Below are positions 1,794 to 10,355 of a stretch of DNA of 12,409 bases, piece after piece (within the stretch, counting starts at the first letter, position 1; every line of letters starts with the position of its first letter). Source of the DNA: Gloeopeniophorella convolvens (lineage: Eukaryota > Basidiomycota > Agaricomycetes > Russulales); the NCBI GenBank assembly GCA_022496205.1, contig WTXD01000324.1, positions 1 through 12,409 on the forward strand, in the 5' to 3' direction. The notes under the pieces were generated by a model. The model was not told the origin of the DNA and made no database searches. It saw only the letters and a program-made list of their open reading frames with translations. The position numbers and the translations under genes were made by a program.

Positions 1794-1835
1794 GGCGGCA
1801 TGTCAGATGACGTCTATATTAGTCTCGTTCCCGCC

Positions 1836-1982
1836 GCTGTGGAGGAGGTGTGCAAGGGGGAGGGGGGCAGCTGAACCAGCGGGGGAAGCCGGAAAATAAT
1901 CGAATCTCATTGGCTACGGGAATAAAGTTTTGATGCCGAAGATGCCGCCCCCCTCCACCCCTTGCACAACCTCCTCCACAGC
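1836..1982. mobile_element. Small foldback (MITE-like) element at the left terminus
   Basis: A 147-bp unit whose ends are imperfect inverted repeats of about 33-36 bp: GCTGTGGAGGAGG... at 1836-1868 against ...CCTCCTCCACAGC at 1947-1982. They differ by a few small indels and substitutions in the G-rich part. The 78-bp centre has no ORF of note. It abuts the 40-bp terminal repeat of the central element. It could be an independent MITE that landed there, or part of a longer foldback end of the large element. No clear target duplication longer than 2 bp is seen. Confidence 0.5.
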
Positions 1983-2021
1983 GTCTGGGGCATTTGGTCC
2001 AGGCACGGGGGCTCGGTGACA
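1982..2021 (+). repeat. Left terminal inverted repeat
   Basis: Begins CGTCTGGGGCATTT and ends GCTCGGTGACA. It matches the reverse complement of 7884-7923 at 39 of 40 positions (G/C mismatch at 1996/1997). With two or three mismatches the match can be extended outward to about 1976. Confidence 0.8.
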
Positions 2022-2030
2022 AGCAGTCAC
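2016..2030. other. Subterminal palindrome, left end
   Basis: GTGAC-AAGCA-GTCAC. The right end has the same arms with a different 5-nt centre (7875-7889). Conserved arms with a free loop suggest a protein-binding palindrome or a cruciform. Confidence 0.55.
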
Positions 2031-2225
2031 AGCGCGTGCGCTTAGTAACTTAATCACATGACTCAACGCGCCCTCGACGCGTGCTAGGACCTGCTATGAC
2101 TGACCAAGTCTGACTCAACCTGAAACAATTGCAACCATTGCCGACGCGGTCATGGTTGCTAGGTGCAAAATCGTCATTCTAGTCCCTCAAGCAGCGTTCA
2201 GTTCTTCCTGGCAGAGCATGCATCA
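2031..2225 (+). promoter_or_regulatory. Left subterminal region / helicase promoter and 5' leader
   Basis: 195 bp between the subterminal palindrome and the chosen helicase ATG. It holds one TCACATGACT motif (2054-2063) shared with the right end and an ACGCGT hexamer (2077-2082). No convincing TATA box is seen. Two short ORFs overlap it but look like frame shadows. Confidence 0.35.
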
Positions 2226-4967
2226 ATGCCGGCCACACCCGCAACCAACAGGGTGCTACAACAGGCTCGGGATGCAGCAGGGGCTGACCACAAGCCTGCT
2301 GAACTACGGAAGTGCATGTCTGACGCGTGCGAAAAAATGTCGCAAGGAGAGATTTCTCCTCGCGAATGGCAGCTTGATGTCGCTGAGTGCCTCTTGCTCG
2401 GTCTAGACTGCGAGGTGATTGCAGCTACAGGTGCAGGGAAAACCCTACCCTTCGTGCTTCCACTCTTAGTCAAACCAGACATGATGATAATCATCCTGTC
2501 TCCGCTCAATGCTCTCGAATTAGATCAGGTGCGGTCACATTACCATCAGAGTACAAGTCACTGATTTCAGCACATGACCGCAAAGCAACATCGATTTCTG
2601 CAGATGGGCCTGCGCGCGAAAGCCGTGAATGGACAAACATATAATGAGACTGTGAGAAAGGTTTGTGTTAGTATTCTGGGGACAGTGCGCAAGGACTCAC
2701 GTAAAATCATGGCAGCAATTCGAACGGGGGGTCTATCAGGTCGTGATAACGTTGCCCGAGATGTGCTTGAGGCACCCAGAATTCCGCAAAACGCTTCAGG
2801 ATCCATCAGTCTCGCAAAAAATCGCCGCATTCATTATCGACGAGGCTCACTGCATCACGCGTTGGGGGACAAGTTTCGAGAGGCCTATACTGCCATCGGA
2901 ACATTGCGGGCATTCGTACCAGCGAAAGTGCCGTTTCTAGTCACATCAGCGACGCTAACACCAAAAGATCTTACCGCGATCCGGAAATGTGTTCATATGC
3001 AAGAGGACTCTACCTTCCACCTTAATCTTGGGAACGATCGGCCGAATATCTTCTGGAGCGTCCGTCGCATGCAGGCGGGGAAGTCGGATCTGCAGGTGTT
3101 GTCATTCCTGATACCGGGCAGCTTACCTGTGTGCGATCGAAAACTCGAGCGCGGCATCGTGTTCTTCGACGACATCTCCCTGTCAATGCATGCGCGCCGT
3201 TGGTTTGTGATGCGTCTTCCGTCACACCTGCATGACCGCGTCAAGTGTTACAACTCGCGTCGCGGGGAGGAGAGCAAGCTGCGAGTGCTTGACGAGTTTA
3301 ATCGTGGCGATATTGATATCATCTTCGCGAGCGAAGCTGCCGGAATGGTGAGATCGAAAACCCTTTACTGCGAGTTGTTACTGACCTTTCTGTGGCAAAA
3401 TCAGGGCTGTGACCTTGCGAACGTTGATTTCGTCGTGCAATTCATGGTGCCGGACTCGCTTGGTGTTTGGTTACAGCGCGCAGGGCGTGCAGGACGCCAA
3501 AGGGGAAGCCAAGCCAAGGCATACCTGCTGGTTCAACCCACAGTCTTCCAGGAAAAGGGGAAATCAAAGAGGAAACGAGGGGAGGCCGTTAAACATGTGA
3601 AGGAGGTGGAGGATGACTTGCGGGAGTGGATCGAAACTATGGGTTGCCGGCGCGATGTTGCTGACAGACATTTTCGAAACCCTGTTCCGCGCGAAGGTAA
3701 GTAGGGTCTCAAAGTAACGAACGTACGTCTTACCTGTTTTCCAGCACCTACCGGCGGTTGTTGTGATAACTGCGCGCAACAGGACTTAGATTCGAACTCG
3801 CGGTCCGCCGAGCCGGCGTCTAACAGCGGCAACGTGACTTCCGGCATGCAGCCGCGGTCAACTTCGCCTTCCCACACGCCCCTGCCCACGCCCTCAACCA
3901 GCGATCTTTTCGATACCCAAGACCCTCACGCCATGGTGGATGCCGTATCGCCTCCGCAGTCCCCCGCCACCACCATTTCTCAGCTCTTTGCATCCCGATC
4001 TCCATCTCCGGATTTAGATCCATCGGACCTGTCTGATAACGACGTTACACCGAGCGATGAACTCAACGAAGCTGGCAAGCGTCCGTTGGGAAAAGGGTCT
4101 GGGATCCGTCGCGGCGAGATTAGGAAGAAGGTCCGTGATGAACTGACCGAGTGGCGTGACTCTACCTGGGAGACATCTTACTCACACTGTCCCTGGGGTG
4201 CCGAGGGACTTCTTCCCGACCGCGTTCTCACCGCGTTTGTCTCACATGGCCGCTGGAAGACCATCGACGATGTCAAATCCTCCAGAAACGCTGCAGCAGT
4301 CAACTGGTTGTGGCTGGAGGACCATGGCCAGGAGCTGCTAGACCGCGCGAACGAGGCAGACGCGCGCGTGCGGGCAGAAAACGATGCCAAGCGCCGAAAG
4401 ATTGAAGCCGAGCGGGAGGCAGAGAAGACCCGAATCAAGGAGGAGGAGGCGCAGAAGAAGCAGGCCGAGCTTGCACGACGCCAGCAGGAGGCCGAGGTCA
4501 AAAGGAAGCAGAAACTCGAGGAGACCGAGAGGAAGCGGGAGGCGGCAGCGGCGCGTAAACTCGCAGCAGCGCAAAAGGCCAAGGAAGCTGCGCGGAAGAA
4601 GGCCGCAAAGGCAGAGGAACGCGCGGCGAAAGCAGCTGCGAAGGCGGCGAAGGATGAGGAGACTGCGCAGAGGAAGGAGGCAAAACGACTTGCAGCTATG
4701 GTGCGTGCACTACCACCTCTTCCGCGCTGCTGATTCACTTACAATATCTATCAGACCCCCCTTTCGAGTGCCCCCGTTCCGCCGCGACGTATCAAGCCCC
4801 GGCCGATCTTTGCAAACCCCACCGCGCCGACGAATCCCACCACCACTGGACCGGCCTCGACGAGCCAGTACAGCTCACAGCACGTTTCCCATCAACCCGC
4901 CCCTCTTTCAGCATCCTCTTCGCAGCCACATGTCGTATATTCGTCGTATCCCCCGAACGCGCCATGA
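2226..4967 (+). CDS. RecQ-like SF2 DNA helicase with C-terminal coiled coil (frameshifted)
   Basis: ATP-dependent helicase of the RecQ-like branch of superfamily 2, presumed nuclear. Exons 2226-2528, 2586-2660, 2716-3347, 3405-3696, 3745-4700 and 4755-4967; introns of 57, 55, 57, 48 and 54 nt with GT...AG ends and mostly clear CTGAT/CTGAC branch sites. Exon lengths total 2471 nt; one missing base gives 824 codons. Motifs by residue: W48Q49 (Q-like), Walker A ATGAGKT 67-73, Ia LSPLNALELDQ 91-101, DEAH 168-171, SAT 204-206, FASEAAGMGCD about 330-340 (V), QRAGRAGR 361-368 (VI). Cysteines C418, C440, C441 and C444 (CCDNC) resemble the RecQ zinc-binding module. Then come an acidic Ser/Pro linker, a WETSYSHCPWG block near 576, a Lys/Glu/Ala coiled coil (about 635-753) and a Pro/Ser tail. 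The lesion is a G run at 2864-2868, one G short, just after DEAHCITRWG. The start at 2226 is the first ATG in frame; it is not proven. Family confidence is high, function in transposition is inference. Confidence 0.85.
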
Positions 4968-4983
4968 GTCTGGACGTAATATA
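4968..4983. other. 16-bp gap between convergent stop codons
   Basis: The helicase TGA ends at 4967 and the DUF6589 TAG begins (in its own direction) at 4986 and ends at 4984. The 3' UTRs and polyadenylation signals must therefore lie within the opposite gene, and full-length transcripts would overlap as sense-antisense pairs. Confidence 0.8.
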
Positions 4984-7751
4984 CTACTTTAGCCATTTTT
5001 CCTCCAACGACCGTTTGAAGGATCGTGCCAACCACCAGCGTTTGAACGCGCCTTTTTGCGAGAGGTTCTGTATCCCCTTCGTCACGATATCTTTCACGCG
5101 GTCGTCTGCGGATCGCAACTTCCGACCATTGATCTGACGAAACCATTTTTCTTCCAGGGCTATTTTCATCTCGCACTCGACGTCTTGGACTTTGCCAGGT
5201 GTTGTATGGCGACTGTCTCGCGATATCACGTTCTGATGCTGCCATGCCATGTGTTTCGCAACCGCGCGGAACACTGGAATTCCCGGGGAGATGCTCGACA
5301 AGTGCTCTAGCGTCGCACCCGGCCCAACGGAGCGATACGTAACCTGATTAGATAACGTATGTCACGCACGTATGACATTTCGACCTCGAGCTTCAAGCGC
5401 ACCTTGATATCTCTAATGTTATGCTCCTGTGCTTGATCAGTTGCCACAAACCCATCTCGCTTTCCAGAACGGTTGACAAGCCAACAACGGTTCCGAACAA
5501 GATGTCTAGCAGTCGCAAGATCAGCTTGGCGGCGAGATTCGTGGTGCGTCCATGATGCACTGTGCACGCACCTGATCTCAGGTGTCCACTCCCGTTTTAG
5601 ACCTTGTACCACCTCAAGAACCTCAATCGTGTACTTTGGGTTTTCTCCACCCGCAAACCGAAGCAAGATCGGCTTGAGAAGATCCTCCATGCGGCCCACA
5701 TCCCCGATCTTGATCGCCTCGCGCAGATCACAGTAGACGAGAATATCCGTCAGGAACATAACTGAGTTATAGCGGTATTCGTCCATTTCCTCCTTTCTTC
5801 CACGTTTCATCTTCTGCAGGGCTGTTCAGGAGGCGCACTCGGCATGCACCTGGTCAGCAAGCAAGATCAGCTGTCCCGGTGATTTTGAGGTAAGATCCTC
5901 AAGCTTCTCAGCCCCGGAGACCTCCAGCCAGCTGGCAAGGATGAGTGCTTCAGCAACGTGCCACAGGGCTTCATCAAGATGATGCCAGAATGGTCCTTTG
6001 ACTTGCGCTTTCGATAGGTTCTTCCGATTCATCAGGTCGAACGCGCGCCGCAAGCCGATCCCGCCAGATGTACCAATATACTGCTTTAAGAGTGAGTGGG
6101 TGAACATAACGAGGAGATGAAACCATCCAAGGACAGGGATGATGTAGTCCATCCGCTCGTAAGTGTTGTAGTCTTCGTGCCGGAAGCCGGCCAACTTGCG
6201 AAGGCGATCAATGGTGAGTTGATCTCCGACAATAGGAATGAGCCGCCCCGCCAATCCTTTCTTCTCCTCTAGGGTATCCATCTTGAGCTGTCGAAGCCAC
6301 TCTTCTACTACCTTCACGTTCCCTTCATAGCTTGCTTCCTCGATGTCTGCGGTATGGAGGATGAATTGCTTGATAGCATTCTCTACTCCGCATGGAAGCT
6401 GATCTGTAGGTGGTGGGGGTGCTAGGATCGGGTCGTCGCGCCCCTCGTATGCCCCGAATGCAGGGCTTTCAAGTAGAAACCGCAAGATCCGGTGTTTGGC
6501 CTGTGCCTTCATGCGTGAGTCCGCCGCCCCTCCGTCATCTTTGCCGCTAAGGAATGATCCGAGGTTGAAATGTTCATCTGCACCCTCCCGACGCACCCGC
6601 TGATGCTCTCTGACCATCTGCGGCGAAACTGTGAAGGATTCTGGTAGCACCCAGACAGTTCCCGCGCTCGCGCTGTAAAAATGATTCTCTTTGTCAACCC
6701 GCATTGAGAATACCCGTTTTGGGATGTTGACGTTGTCATAGGACCAAAAACAAACTTGATTCTGCATTGCCACCCGTGCAGCCTCTAGCTCGCAGCTTGA
6801 AATCTTCTTGAAGGCCTCGGAAGTCCACTTGACGCTCATGGTGAGTCCCGCGGCATGGAGCGCGTCGAAAGCACGTGATGAGAGGCCACAAGATTTGAGA
6901 TGGATTGCCCACAGTGCCGCGAGACGACTGCGGTGATGTGAACGGCAGAACGAGAGCATTCCAAGAAGGTGAGTTATAACCTGTAATATTTTAGCACCGG
7001 CTACAAACATTTCACCCACAGAACTCACATTCTTCGGAGTCTTGTGCGTGTTTCGGCGTGCCTGACGTGCACTCCACCCAGCCTTCTTCAAGATGCGCCA
7101 GAGGATAGGTGCGTCGTTCTGAAGCTTTGCGGCGATATCAGAGAAGCTGAAGGAGGTCAATGAAGGTAGGGATAGGGGATCCGAGTCCGCGTGAAAGTGT
7201 TGGGCGATCACTTTCATTTCGTCCTGTGTTTCCTCGACAATACACTCTGCTGCAAAAGTCTTCATAATCTCGGTCCCTCGGTGCTCTTGGACATGTGGTG
7301 GCTTGTTCCAATTACGCAGCGTGGCCAATAGCAAGTCATTTTGGAAGAGTGCGGTCCTATGGTAGCGAACAACATCATCCGCGATGCATTCCGGGTCTCC
7401 CCAGCTCAAAGCATGGAGAAAGTCGCCGATATTGAGGTCCAGGTCCGTCAGAAGCTTGCAAACTGCCCGTACTTTTGGTAGCAAGCTTCTACCTTGATTC
7501 CTAAGGTTGCTAGCCCGCCTCGCGGCCTCCTGAATTGGTGGGTTGATAGATTCCGAGTCTGAATCAATGTCCATGTCGTCCGTCTCCTCATCCGACGCAT
7601 CCAGGTCCTCACAAGGAACAAAATCTGGATCATCGTCTGAGTCATAGTCGAAAATGTCTTCTGAGAAGCGTATTTGAGGGACTTCTCGGGGCATTTTTGC
7701 ACGCGTTGCCTGCAAGCGTCCACCATTCAACCTGACTTCGGCATTTTGCAT
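4984..7751 (-). CDS. DUF6589 protein, possible transposase (one in-frame stop)
   Basis: I recognise the DUF6589 family of Agaricomycetes; its biochemical role is not established. Exons on the - strand: 7751-7029, 6980-5572, 5505-5403 and 5343-4984. Introns are 48 nt (GTGAGT...TACAG), 66 nt (GTGCGT...CTGAT...CTAG) and 59 nt (GTGCGC...CTAATCAG). Exon sum is 2595 nt, exactly 865 codons. Family landmarks: an acidic N-terminus (residues about 35-67), SYDNVNIPKRVF with D323, GTVWVLP, IVGDQLTIDRLR with D494, PVLGWFHLL, HHLDEALWHVAEA with E578, IKIGDVGRMEDLL, RFAGGENPKY, CWLVNRSG and AQEHNIRDIKV. An in-frame TGA at 5826-5828 falls inside the normally continuous AS-x-x-AL segment, so it looks like a nonsense mutation rather than a gene end. 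A 36-nt GTGCAT...CTGCAG stretch around it could be called an intron but is too short. The D, D and E suggest, without proof, an RNase H-fold active site. Confidence 0.85.
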
Positions 7752-7883
7752 TGGTCCGGCTCATCTGGTCCGAACTCTGACACATATTTGCTGACAATGA
7801 TGTGTCCACATTAGAAAATATGTATTACAAGCGATGATGGGAAGTCAGGTGAAGTCATGTGAAGTCATGTGAATGTGACACCC
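7752..7883 (-). promoter_or_regulatory. Right subterminal region / DUF6589 promoter
   Basis: 132 bp between the DUF6589 ATG and the right terminal repeat. The part next to the gene is AT-rich (7790-7830), with TACATATTTTC on the - strand. The part next to the terminus is a 10-bp tandem array. No sure TATA box. Confidence 0.4.
7841..7873. repeat. Tandem 10-bp subterminal repeat
   Basis: GAAGTCAGGT, GAAGTCATGT, GAAGTCATGT, GAA: 3.3 units. On the other strand this reads TCACATGACT twice (7853-7862 and 7863-7872), the motif found once at the left end (2054-2063). Confidence 0.75.
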
Positions 7884-7889
7884 TGTCAC
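7875..7889. other. Subterminal palindrome, right end
   Basis: GTGAC-ACCCT-GTCAC: same arms as 2016-2030 at the corresponding distance from the terminus. Confidence 0.55.
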
Positions 7890-7923
7890 CGAGCCCCCGT
7901 GCCTGGACGAAATGCCCCAGACG
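7884..7923 (-). repeat. Right terminal inverted repeat
   Basis: Reverse complement of 1982-2021 with one mismatch. Its outer flank continues into a Ty3/gypsy protease fossil in which the TIR-edge sequence CGCTACAACG recurs (7958-7967). Confidence 0.8.
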
Positions 7924-7930
7924 TTGTAGC

Positions 7931-8128
7931 GACCTTGTGCAGGCGTGCCTGACTGGGCGCTACAACGGCTGGATCCGAGACTACGTCTATATGGACGTTA
8001 TCAACCTCGACTGGTACAACATGATTGTTGGCACACCCTTCATGCGACAGTATGGGGTAGTGCTCGATTTCTCTACAAACAAGCTGCACATCTGTGGTGA
8101 GCTTGTCCCACTCCTCATGAAGGGCTAG
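7931..8128 (+). pseudogene. Ty3/gypsy retrotransposon protease fragment
   Basis: The open frame reads ...GRYNGWIRDYVYMDVINL then DWYNMIVGTPFMRQYGVVLDF and NKLHI...LLMKG, ending at a TAG. The block INLDWYNMIVGTPFMRQYGV is the C-terminal half of a Ty3/gypsy aspartic protease (consensus L..YD.ILGTPFL..). The catalytic DSG part, gag, reverse transcriptase and integrase are all missing, so this is a fossil. It starts within about 10 bp of the right terminal repeat. The in-frame sequence further left is terminal-repeat sequence, not protease. Confidence 0.7.
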
Positions 8129-8369: not shown

Positions 8370-8667
8370 TGATATGCTGCCGGAGCATATACCCTCTGTT
8401 GCGGACCAATTTCGTGATTCTGCAACCTGGTACTCAACCCTAGCTAAGTCCCTCTCGTTCCACTTAGTTCCGACCCCTCGGCCCTCAGTTGCATCTTAGT
8501 TTTAGCTCTGAAGTCCCTGTGCTCGTGGACCGTGACTCTGTGCAGTGTTCAAGCAGCTTATCGAAGTCTCTTGCCGGAGCGTGATTAGAACCGAGGCCCC
8601 TAGCCCTCAAAAGGCTCGGCTGATCACTCAGAAACCTCGGCCAAAGCCTCAGAAACTCGGTCAGGCT

Positions 8668-8672
8668 CAAGA
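8668..8672. other. Target-site duplication of A3 (left copy)
   Basis: CAAGA directly before TGTTAAAG; repeated at 9153-9157. Confidence 0.85.
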
Positions 8673-9152
8673 TGTTAAAGCGCAACAGAGGGTGAAGTGA
8701 CAACTGAAGGACACAGACTGACGCTCAGTCAAGGAAGGTCAAAAGACTTGATTACAACAATACCTGAAGGACACAGAGTGACGCTGTAAGGTAGTGTAAG
8801 TATAAGAAAGTAGAAAGGAGCGTAAGTGTACTTGCCTCAGTCAAGGAAGGTCAAAAGACTGAGGCTACAAAGGCAAAGAAAGGAGTCCTTATATACTGTA
8901 AGGAGTGACAGATAGCATGTGATAAACACTGCTTAGAAAGCCTAGGAGACCCACATGAAACGGAGTAAGAGTGGGTACCGGAGTACAGGGTGGGTCATGG
9001 AATGCCCTAGAAGAGTCCAGAACACGGAAACGAATGTGAGGCTGAGCACAGCCTTAAGTCTAGAACATTATGTACACAAGATAAGATAGTCCTTGATCAT
9101 TAGGTCCATATCTAATCTAATCAGAGCCACCAGGACACTGTCCATCTCAACA
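8673..9152 (+). repeat. Solo LTR, family A, copy 3 (A3)
   Basis: A 480-bp LTR, TGTTAAAGCG at the left and TCTCAACA at the right, flanked by the perfect 5-bp duplication CAAGA (8668-8672 and 9153-9157). TATA box at 8889-8895. Cassette x is at 8704-8725 and 8764-8785, and cassette y at 8726-8748 and 8838-8860; the hairpin is at 8834-8865. It is closest to copy 2. The uninterrupted target is visible in repeat B copy 1 at about 700-712 (reverse strand). All three A copies lie in the same orientation. Confidence 0.88.
8834..8865 (+). other. Conserved 9-bp-stem hairpin in LTR A3
   Basis: GCCTCAGTC and GACTGAGGC arms with a 14-nt loop, as in A1 and A2. Confidence 0.7.
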
Positions 9153-9157
9153 CAAGA
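9153..9157. other. Target-site duplication of A3 (right copy)
   Basis: CAAGA directly after the CAACA terminus, matching 8668-8672. Confidence 0.85.
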
Positions 9158-9330
9158 GGCTGTTTCGACTCGGTTCAAGCGTCGGTTAGGCAGGATTCAG
9201 GCTCAGATTGTGATTGGGTTAGAGGATGGCGATTGAAGAGATTCCCATGTGCAGCCTGCGGTTAGAGGCTTGCAGTTTATATAAAGACACCTTACTGTAC
9301 TCTGATTTCAACAAGAAAGTCCCCCACTGG

Positions 9331-9697: not shown

Positions 9698-10355
9698 TGT
9701 CATGAACACTAGGGCTTCAAGGAGGTCGAGATGCTCAGAACACTCAAGCAAACTCAGCCCTACTAGTGAATACCTTACGTGTCACTCACAATGTGACGCG
9801 TACCACTCACATTTCGACTACAAGTCGAAATGCATCACGTGACCCCTTACCCCCATTCCTCGCCCTACTCCCTAATGGCCAATTAACCCTGGAATACCCC
9901 CAAGATCCCGGACTAGGGATCTCTCAGAATGGCCATATTACTTGTCCCAAAGTAACCAGACCCTTGATCAAGATGAAACGCTTCACGCGTCCTCTTTGAG
10001 ACTCTGATTATCAAGAACTCCATGGGGCCTCAAGCCCCACTCTGCGATGGAATCTAAGAAGCGTATCAGAGAGGAGAGGTTATGGGGAATCCCCTCTGGA
10101 ATCCCCATCAGTAATTAGACCAGATTCGTCTGGGGGGTCTCCAGTAGTATATAAGACCCCCATGTATTGCCCAGTGGTCCTCAGACTGTCCATCTGTGGC
10201 ACTCTCATCTGTACCTAGCACTGCAATAGCACTGTTAGTGTGTTCCCACTCCGTTCCTGCATATCGCAGCTCATCTTCTGCCTTCCCCCTTGTGACGCTC
10301 TCCAAAACCCCCTCTGCTATCCTCTCTGCGCGCACACCGCGAGTGAGTCCTGACA
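9698..10355 (+). repeat. 5' LTR of element C (658 bp)
   Basis: The ends are perfect inverted pentamers, TGTCA (9698-9702) and TGACA (10351-10355). The first 293 bp match 1501-1793 in inverse orientation with one substitution. TATATAAG lies at 10148-10155, with a probable transcript start at about 10183, giving U3 of about 485 bp and R-U5 of about 173 bp. U3 contains the palindrome CATTTCGACT-ACA-AGTCGAAATG (9810-9832), an E-box CACGTG (9836-9841) and the hairpin TGGGGC-CTCAA-GCCCCA (about 10023-10039). The base after the LTR does not repeat the upstream GTTAG, so it is not a solo LTR. The 77-codon ORF inside is not a gene. Confidence 0.85.
10148..10155 (+). promoter_or_regulatory. TATA box of LTR C
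   Basis: TATATAAG, about 35 bp upstream of AGACTGTCCA at 10183, the predicted RNA 5' end. Confidence 0.65.

Follow-up and report, generated by a model that had tools for sequence, protein, structure and literature searches.

We analysed a stretch of 12,409 nucleotides (nt) of the basidiomycete Gloeopeniophorella convolvens (Russulales; GCA_022496205.1, contig WTXD01000324.1, labelled C251 here), hereafter the window, and conclude with good confidence that positions 1820-7983 hold a DNA transposon of the cut-and-paste type, in a copy with both genes broken, whose lineage is most probably AcademH. The element is 6,164 bp long and carries two convergent genes, one encoding a RecQ-like helicase and the other a DUF6589 protein, which is the predicted transposase. 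An original prediction had joined these two proteins in one mobile unit bounded by a 40-bp inverted repeat. Their association in a mobile unit was borne out by copies elsewhere in the genome, duplications of fixed length, a nested insertion with its empty site and recurrent convergent pairing of the two genes; the boundaries moved outward.

Element boundaries, copies and target-site duplications

The host genome comprises 36.68 Mb, and C-labels denote its other contigs. BLAST alignments of the window with its copies in C163 (99.5% identity) and C161 (98.1%) begin at 1817-1819 and end at 7983, while the alignment with the C290 copy covers 1966 to 7983, its left tip being separated from the remainder by a nested insertion. 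At the boundaries given by this comparison we found the left tip TAGTCTCG (1820..1827, + strand) and its inverted partner CGAGACTA (7976..7983, - strand), flanked by the perfect 9-bp duplication CGTCTATAT at 1811..1819 and 7984..7992. The same left tip is present in C163, C161, C290, C13, C235, C323, C290b and C168. The 40-bp repeat that had been taken for the terminus does exist, its left copy (1982..2021, +) matching the reverse complement of the right copy (7884..7923, -) at 39/40 positions, and a repeat-finding tool lengthens the inverted match to 54 nt at 91%. Because similarity among copies reaches well past it to 1820 and 7983, this repeat is subterminal, the true ends lying 162 bp further out on the left and 60 bp further out on the right.

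A perfect 9-bp target-site duplication was found in all elements of this genome for which both tips were located (10/10). These comprise four window-family copies (duplications CGTCTATAT in the window, GGAGGCAGT in C163, GGAAATTAT in C161 and GCCCCACTC in C290), the element C13, four relatives belonging to two further families, and the distant DUF6589 element C2. C13 is a non-autonomous element of 1,105 bp with window-family tips and GGGCGAAAC on either side, in which no DUF6589 or helicase match was found. The relatives, whose tips were located by motif, are C235 (6,817 bp, GAGGCATCC), C323 (7,006 bp, CCTGAATCT), C290b (7,006 bp, TGGAGGAGG) and C168 (GGGGCCTTC). The transposase-side tip and its hairpin are common to C235 and C168. 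Since the two 7,006-bp elements C323 and C290b are 99.6% identical, their family appears to have moved recently. C2 (6,896 bp) has different tips, beginning CAGGCTCC, and is flanked on both sides by GACAAACGG; it came from a scan that accepted only candidates with a duplication as well as an inverted tip of 8 bp, and the scan also listed two internal palindrome pairs (8 and 10 bp) that we set aside. Four loci with one usable end each were left out of the count, namely C374, which lacks 856 bp of the helicase end, C57 and C342, whose helicase-side ends were not found within the stretches inspected, and C23. Also outside the count are the DUF6589 loci C334, C356, C342 at 144 kb, C332, C4, C10, C68, C88 and C105. 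At the helicase-side tip of C235 (L059, about 1172-1203) the outer 16 bp are tandemly duplicated, giving TAGTCTCGTTCCCGCC twice, a possible trace of slippage or of repair there.

The relative C290b is nested within the left terminal stem of the C290 copy, at the equivalent of window positions 1970-1978, where it is flanked by TGGAGGAGG. This stretch of the stem is uninterrupted in the window, C163 and C161 copies, which, since C290b sits inside the fourth copy of the same family, represent the empty site of that insertion; in the window the unoccupied 9-bp target lies at 1970..1978. The anticipated empty site with a fixed-length duplication was thus recovered for C290b. For the insertion in the window none was found among the 40 of 149 candidates that were scored: two of the matches to the joined flanks (258 nt) were the two halves in the window itself, and the other 38 covered only the repeat in the left flank.

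We also considered that the locus is no transposon at all and arose by segmental duplication or as a satellite containing inverted repeats. The presence of further repeats, both inverted and direct, around the element in the window counts in favor of such an origin. Nevertheless, the copies have different flanking regions and cease to be similar beyond the tips, and every insertion carries a perfect 9-bp duplication of its own, so that we give this explanation next to no weight.

In the window copy the helicase gene is frameshifted and the transposase gene is interrupted by an in-frame stop. Both defects are absent from the other three copies, which have different interruptions in the two reading frames. 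Among C-to-T changes counted on both strands in the four copies, 116/134 fall in CpG, compared with about 28% of C positions; the C161 copy (L010), with 73/83 of its changes in CpG, supplies 73 of the 116. Such a bias would be expected if transposons are methylated at CpG in G. convolvens.

Terminal stem-loops and subterminal motifs

Both ends of the element contain a predicted stem-loop. When the left end (1820-1990) and the right end (7912-7983) were folded as single-stranded DNA, stem-loops were obtained at 1835..1983 (z-score -7.2) and 7917..7972 (z-score -6.0), with 0/200 shuffles as good in either case. A hairpin scan was then applied to the ten ends of five elements from four families. 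Stem scores were 8-31 at these ends, while the controls scored 6-8 (13 interior windows) and 6-9 (30 shuffles). The stem starts at nt 12 at the right ends of the window element and C13 and at both ends of C323 and C2, and at nt 16, 17, 18 and 32 at the other four, the value of 32 at the left end of C235 arising because its tip is duplicated. Stem sequences vary between families.

The left ends of the window element, C23 and C13, diverged members of the window family, show compensatory changes. Across these three sequences 98.1% of 105 cells are paired, and there are 5 pairs changed on both sides, compared with 2.0 in shuffles (2/500 shuffles reach 5). When the register was slid by 1-3 columns, pairing fell to 46-59% and pairs changed on both sides to 0-1, although the structure was taken from the window element, which favors that structure in this control. 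Three sequences make a small sample, but these patterns support selection on stem pairing. In the hairpin scan two ends do not exceed the controls: the right end of C13 (score 9, z-score -1.7) and the right end of C235 (score 8, although its fold reaches a z-score of -6.1).

Further inward lie the motifs that the original prediction had placed just inside both ends, and all of them were present. GTGAC-N5-GTCAC palindromes occur at 2016..2030 and 7875..7889. The TCACATGACT motif occurs once on the left (2054..2063, +) and twice on the right in reverse complement, starting at 7853 and 7863 (7853..7872, -). Searching the 36.7-Mb genome for a 24-bp core of the repeat with at most 3 mismatches returned 11 sites, which are not chance matches, a reversed-pattern control having returned 0. 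Four 6-kb elements account for eight of the sites with their paired ends, C13 for two with its own ends, and the last is C23. The latter (L012, about 5664-5858) is a lone, degenerate left end of the window family in which the stem-loop is conserved and the outermost bases are unlike TAGT; no partner end was found for it by the 24-bp core search.

The DUF6589 and helicase genes

As had been predicted, the repeats enclose two convergent genes, one with DEAD and Helicase_C domains on the + strand and the other with DUF6589 (PF20231) on the - strand. The DUF6589 gene (4984..7751, -), interrupted by the in-frame stop, was delimited by its Pfam family, its copies and its fold, with a putative last exon at about 4984-5301. 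An RNase H fold interrupted by a long helical insertion is predicted for its product, and the best matches among solved structures are Hermes, the P element and RAG1. Identity to the best Hermes and P element structures is only 9-11%, with no match at the sequence level, and no Academ structure appears among the fold-search matches shown. The predicted first and second catalytic aspartates are, in the numbering of protein P0004, D309 (window 6735..6737, -; conserved in 42/44, 15/15 and 26/26) and D478 (6222..6224, -; 43/44, 13/15 and 25/26, the remainder being gaps). For the third residue we prefer E720 (5424..5426, -; 41/44, 14/15 and 21/26) over D623, an equally conserved alternative (43/44, 15/15 and 26/26), by analogy with Hermes and RAG1, in which the catalytic glutamate comes after the helical insertion. 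Taken together, these models predict that the DUF6589 protein is a DDE transposase of the RNase H fold.

By hmmscan against Pfam-A, the window open reading frames (ORFs) on this side match only DUF6589 (E 0.1), as does P0004 (E 0.5), and P0132, which is 100% identical to the C2 query over 98% of that query, matches DUF6589 plus one unrelated family below threshold. Three protein searches returned 111, 63 and 75 proteins, and the named organisms, judged by eye, were all Agaricomycetes; each search scored about 8,000 word-sharing candidates and therefore says little on absence outside this class. A scan of viral contigs gave 30 pattern matches, 0 of them confirmed. Our literature search turned up nothing relevant on DUF6589 or PF20231.

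The RecQ-like helicase gene (2163..4733, +) is frameshifted and appears to consist of several exons; it was recognized by its Pfam domains, RecQ structures and its copies, and its outer limits are those of ORFs, as opposed to mapped transcripts. The C-terminal part (3834-4733, +) is basic and coiled-coil-like. Across the genome, 34 DUF6589 and 32 helicase matches were merged into 21 and 23 loci respectively. A convergent helicase lies within 5 kb at 16/21 DUF6589 loci, among them the distant C2, C334 and C356, compared with an expectation of about 0.002 per locus under random placement. The DUF6589 loci without a helicase are C4, C10, C105, C68 and C88, the last two situated at contig edges, and for 7/23 helicase loci these searches found no DUF6589 partner. 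Comparisons between families show constraint on both proteins, with ratios of nonsynonymous to synonymous differences (pN/pS) of 0.33-0.63 at pS of 0.74-0.82 over 10 comparisons, in 8 of which synonymous divergence (dS) is saturated; the C4 locus gave no alignment in this analysis.

These data bear on whether the helicase is merely a passenger gene, transposition requiring just DUF6589 and the element ends. C13 has been mobile without any genes, presumably in trans, and three of the 21 DUF6589 loci (C4, C10 and C105) lie away from contig edges and have no helicase match, both of which speak for a passenger. On the other hand, the helicase has been kept and constrained in several families at saturated dS, and it is convergent with DUF6589 at all 16 paired loci, including the distant ones. 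We regard a passenger helicase as very unlikely.

Lineage, proposed mechanism and surroundings

The AcademH lineage of the Academ superfamily was reportedly described by Kojima in 2020 (Mob DNA 11:15). AcademH elements are stated to have duplications of 9 or 10 bp and AcademX elements of 3 or 4 bp, a difference linked to the presence of a helicase versus a nuclease (PMC10045372). Basidiomycota, Ascomycota and Mucoromycota are stated to harbor AcademH at low copy number (PMC10799480). The original prediction had held this kind of element to be undescribed, which needs correcting: helicase-bearing DNA transposons with 9-10-bp duplications have been known as AcademH since 2020, also in Basidiomycota (PMC10799480, PMC10045372). 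We apply the label as the probable one because the 9-bp duplication and the helicase of the window element fit the 9-10-bp duplication and helicase of AcademH; the elements would then be new families within this lineage. The duplication is 9 bp and perfect in 10/10 elements, the RecQ-like helicase lies inside the element and is paired at 16/21 DUF6589 loci, and the host is a basidiomycete; the DDD/E transposase corresponds at the level of predicted fold only, with two conserved aspartates and either E720 or D623 as the third residue. Putative non-autonomous Academ elements have been listed in another mushroom (PMC8290104).

Alternatively, the element might represent a separate, unnamed Agaricomycete DDE superfamily that resembles AcademH, its DUF6589 transposase not being an Academ protein. 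Two observations weigh in that direction, namely that the named homologues in all three protein searches come from Agaricomycetes and that the nearest solved folds are those of hAT, P and RAG1, with no Academ protein among the matches shown. Against this, AcademH as described (PMC10045372, PMC10799480) has the same duplication length, likewise carries a helicase and is likewise found in Basidiomycota, and each of the protein searches was limited to scoring about 8,000 candidates that share words. A separate superfamily appears unlikely, and we keep AcademH as the preferred lineage.

Other known systems were also compared. AcademX, which belongs to the same superfamily and carries a nuclease with 3-4-bp duplications (PMC10045372), does not agree with the 9-bp duplications in 10/10 elements; no nuclease gene was seen in the window element. 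The transposases of hAT (Hermes), P element and RAG1/Transib resemble the DUF6589 protein in the predicted RNase H fold, long helical insertion included, and differ in that the window element has a 9-bp duplication and a helicase gene. Target duplications are 8 bp for hAT and P, and 5 bp for Transib. Helitrons have Rep fused to a Pif1-like helicase and leave no target-site duplication. As predicted, the window element is distinct from them: its two genes are separate and convergent, Pfam shows no Rep domain, and the duplications are 9 bp long. Kolobok elements target TTAA, and KolobokH does not agree with the ten different 9-bp duplications, none of them TTAA. AcademH, KolobokH and Helitron are named together as helicase carriers (PMC10799480); the window element too carries a helicase, encoded by a separate RecQ-like gene. 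KDZ and Plavaka DNA transposons are abundant in Agaricomycetes and the Plavaka Pfam domain is pfam18759 (PMC8290104). The predicted distinction from KDZ also stands, with DUF6589 the only Pfam match on the transposase side and neither a KDZ nor a Plavaka domain found there.

We propose that the DUF6589 transposase would recognize the palindromes and repeats near the ends, cleave the DNA at the TAGTCTCG tips and join the ends to the target with a 9-nt stagger, after which gap filling would produce the 9-bp duplication. The stagger is recorded in the duplications themselves, and the remaining catalytic steps are suggested by the fold class. The RecQ-like helicase is a second element-encoded protein, whose likeliest role may be to open or resolve the stem-loops near the tips, to unwind the joined ends for gap filling, or both. 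More tentatively, the tip stem-loops could be working parts of the element. Each end would consist of an 8-bp signature and then a palindrome that starts at nt 12, or at nt 16-32 in some cases, and that varies in sequence between families but preserves its pairing, with the element's own helicase acting on the hairpins in excision or gap repair and DUF6589 serving as the transposase of the whole group. To judge from the sources consulted, helicase-assisted cut-and-paste of this kind would be new among DDE transposons. Neither terminal stem-loops nor DUF6589 as a transposase was met in the literature searched or in the AcademH descriptions consulted. A DUF6589 transposase and terminal stem-loops, kept in the window family by compensatory changes, are thus possibly new.

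The contig around the element is packed with repeats. A 293-nt inverted repeat, 100% complementary, flanks the element at 1501-1793 and 9698-9990. Because the left one is part of a repeat present in high copy number, with many further matches in the genome, these sequences look like recently inserted repeat ends, possibly long terminal repeats. Direct repeats of 86-95% identity lie on either side at 982-1485 and 8662-9160, and one of them is also found beside the C161 copy. Adjoining the right end is an open peptide (7985-8125, +) that resembles a retroelement protease region; it has no Pfam match, and a Pfam comparison of four ORFs in the flanks yielded no family. The insertion site of the element may have been the remnant of a retrotransposon.

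The presence of terminal stem-loops beside a helicase encoded by the same element makes a role of the helicase in cut-and-paste transposition testable. The helicase might also explain the longer duplication, as has been suggested for AcademH in comparison with AcademX in the paper on IS481EU (PMC10045372). For the Pfam family DUF6589, annotated as of unknown function, our results support a function as DDE transposase. If so, many Agaricomycete hypothetical proteins, and the RecQ-like helicases along with them, may be genes of transposons and not of the host.

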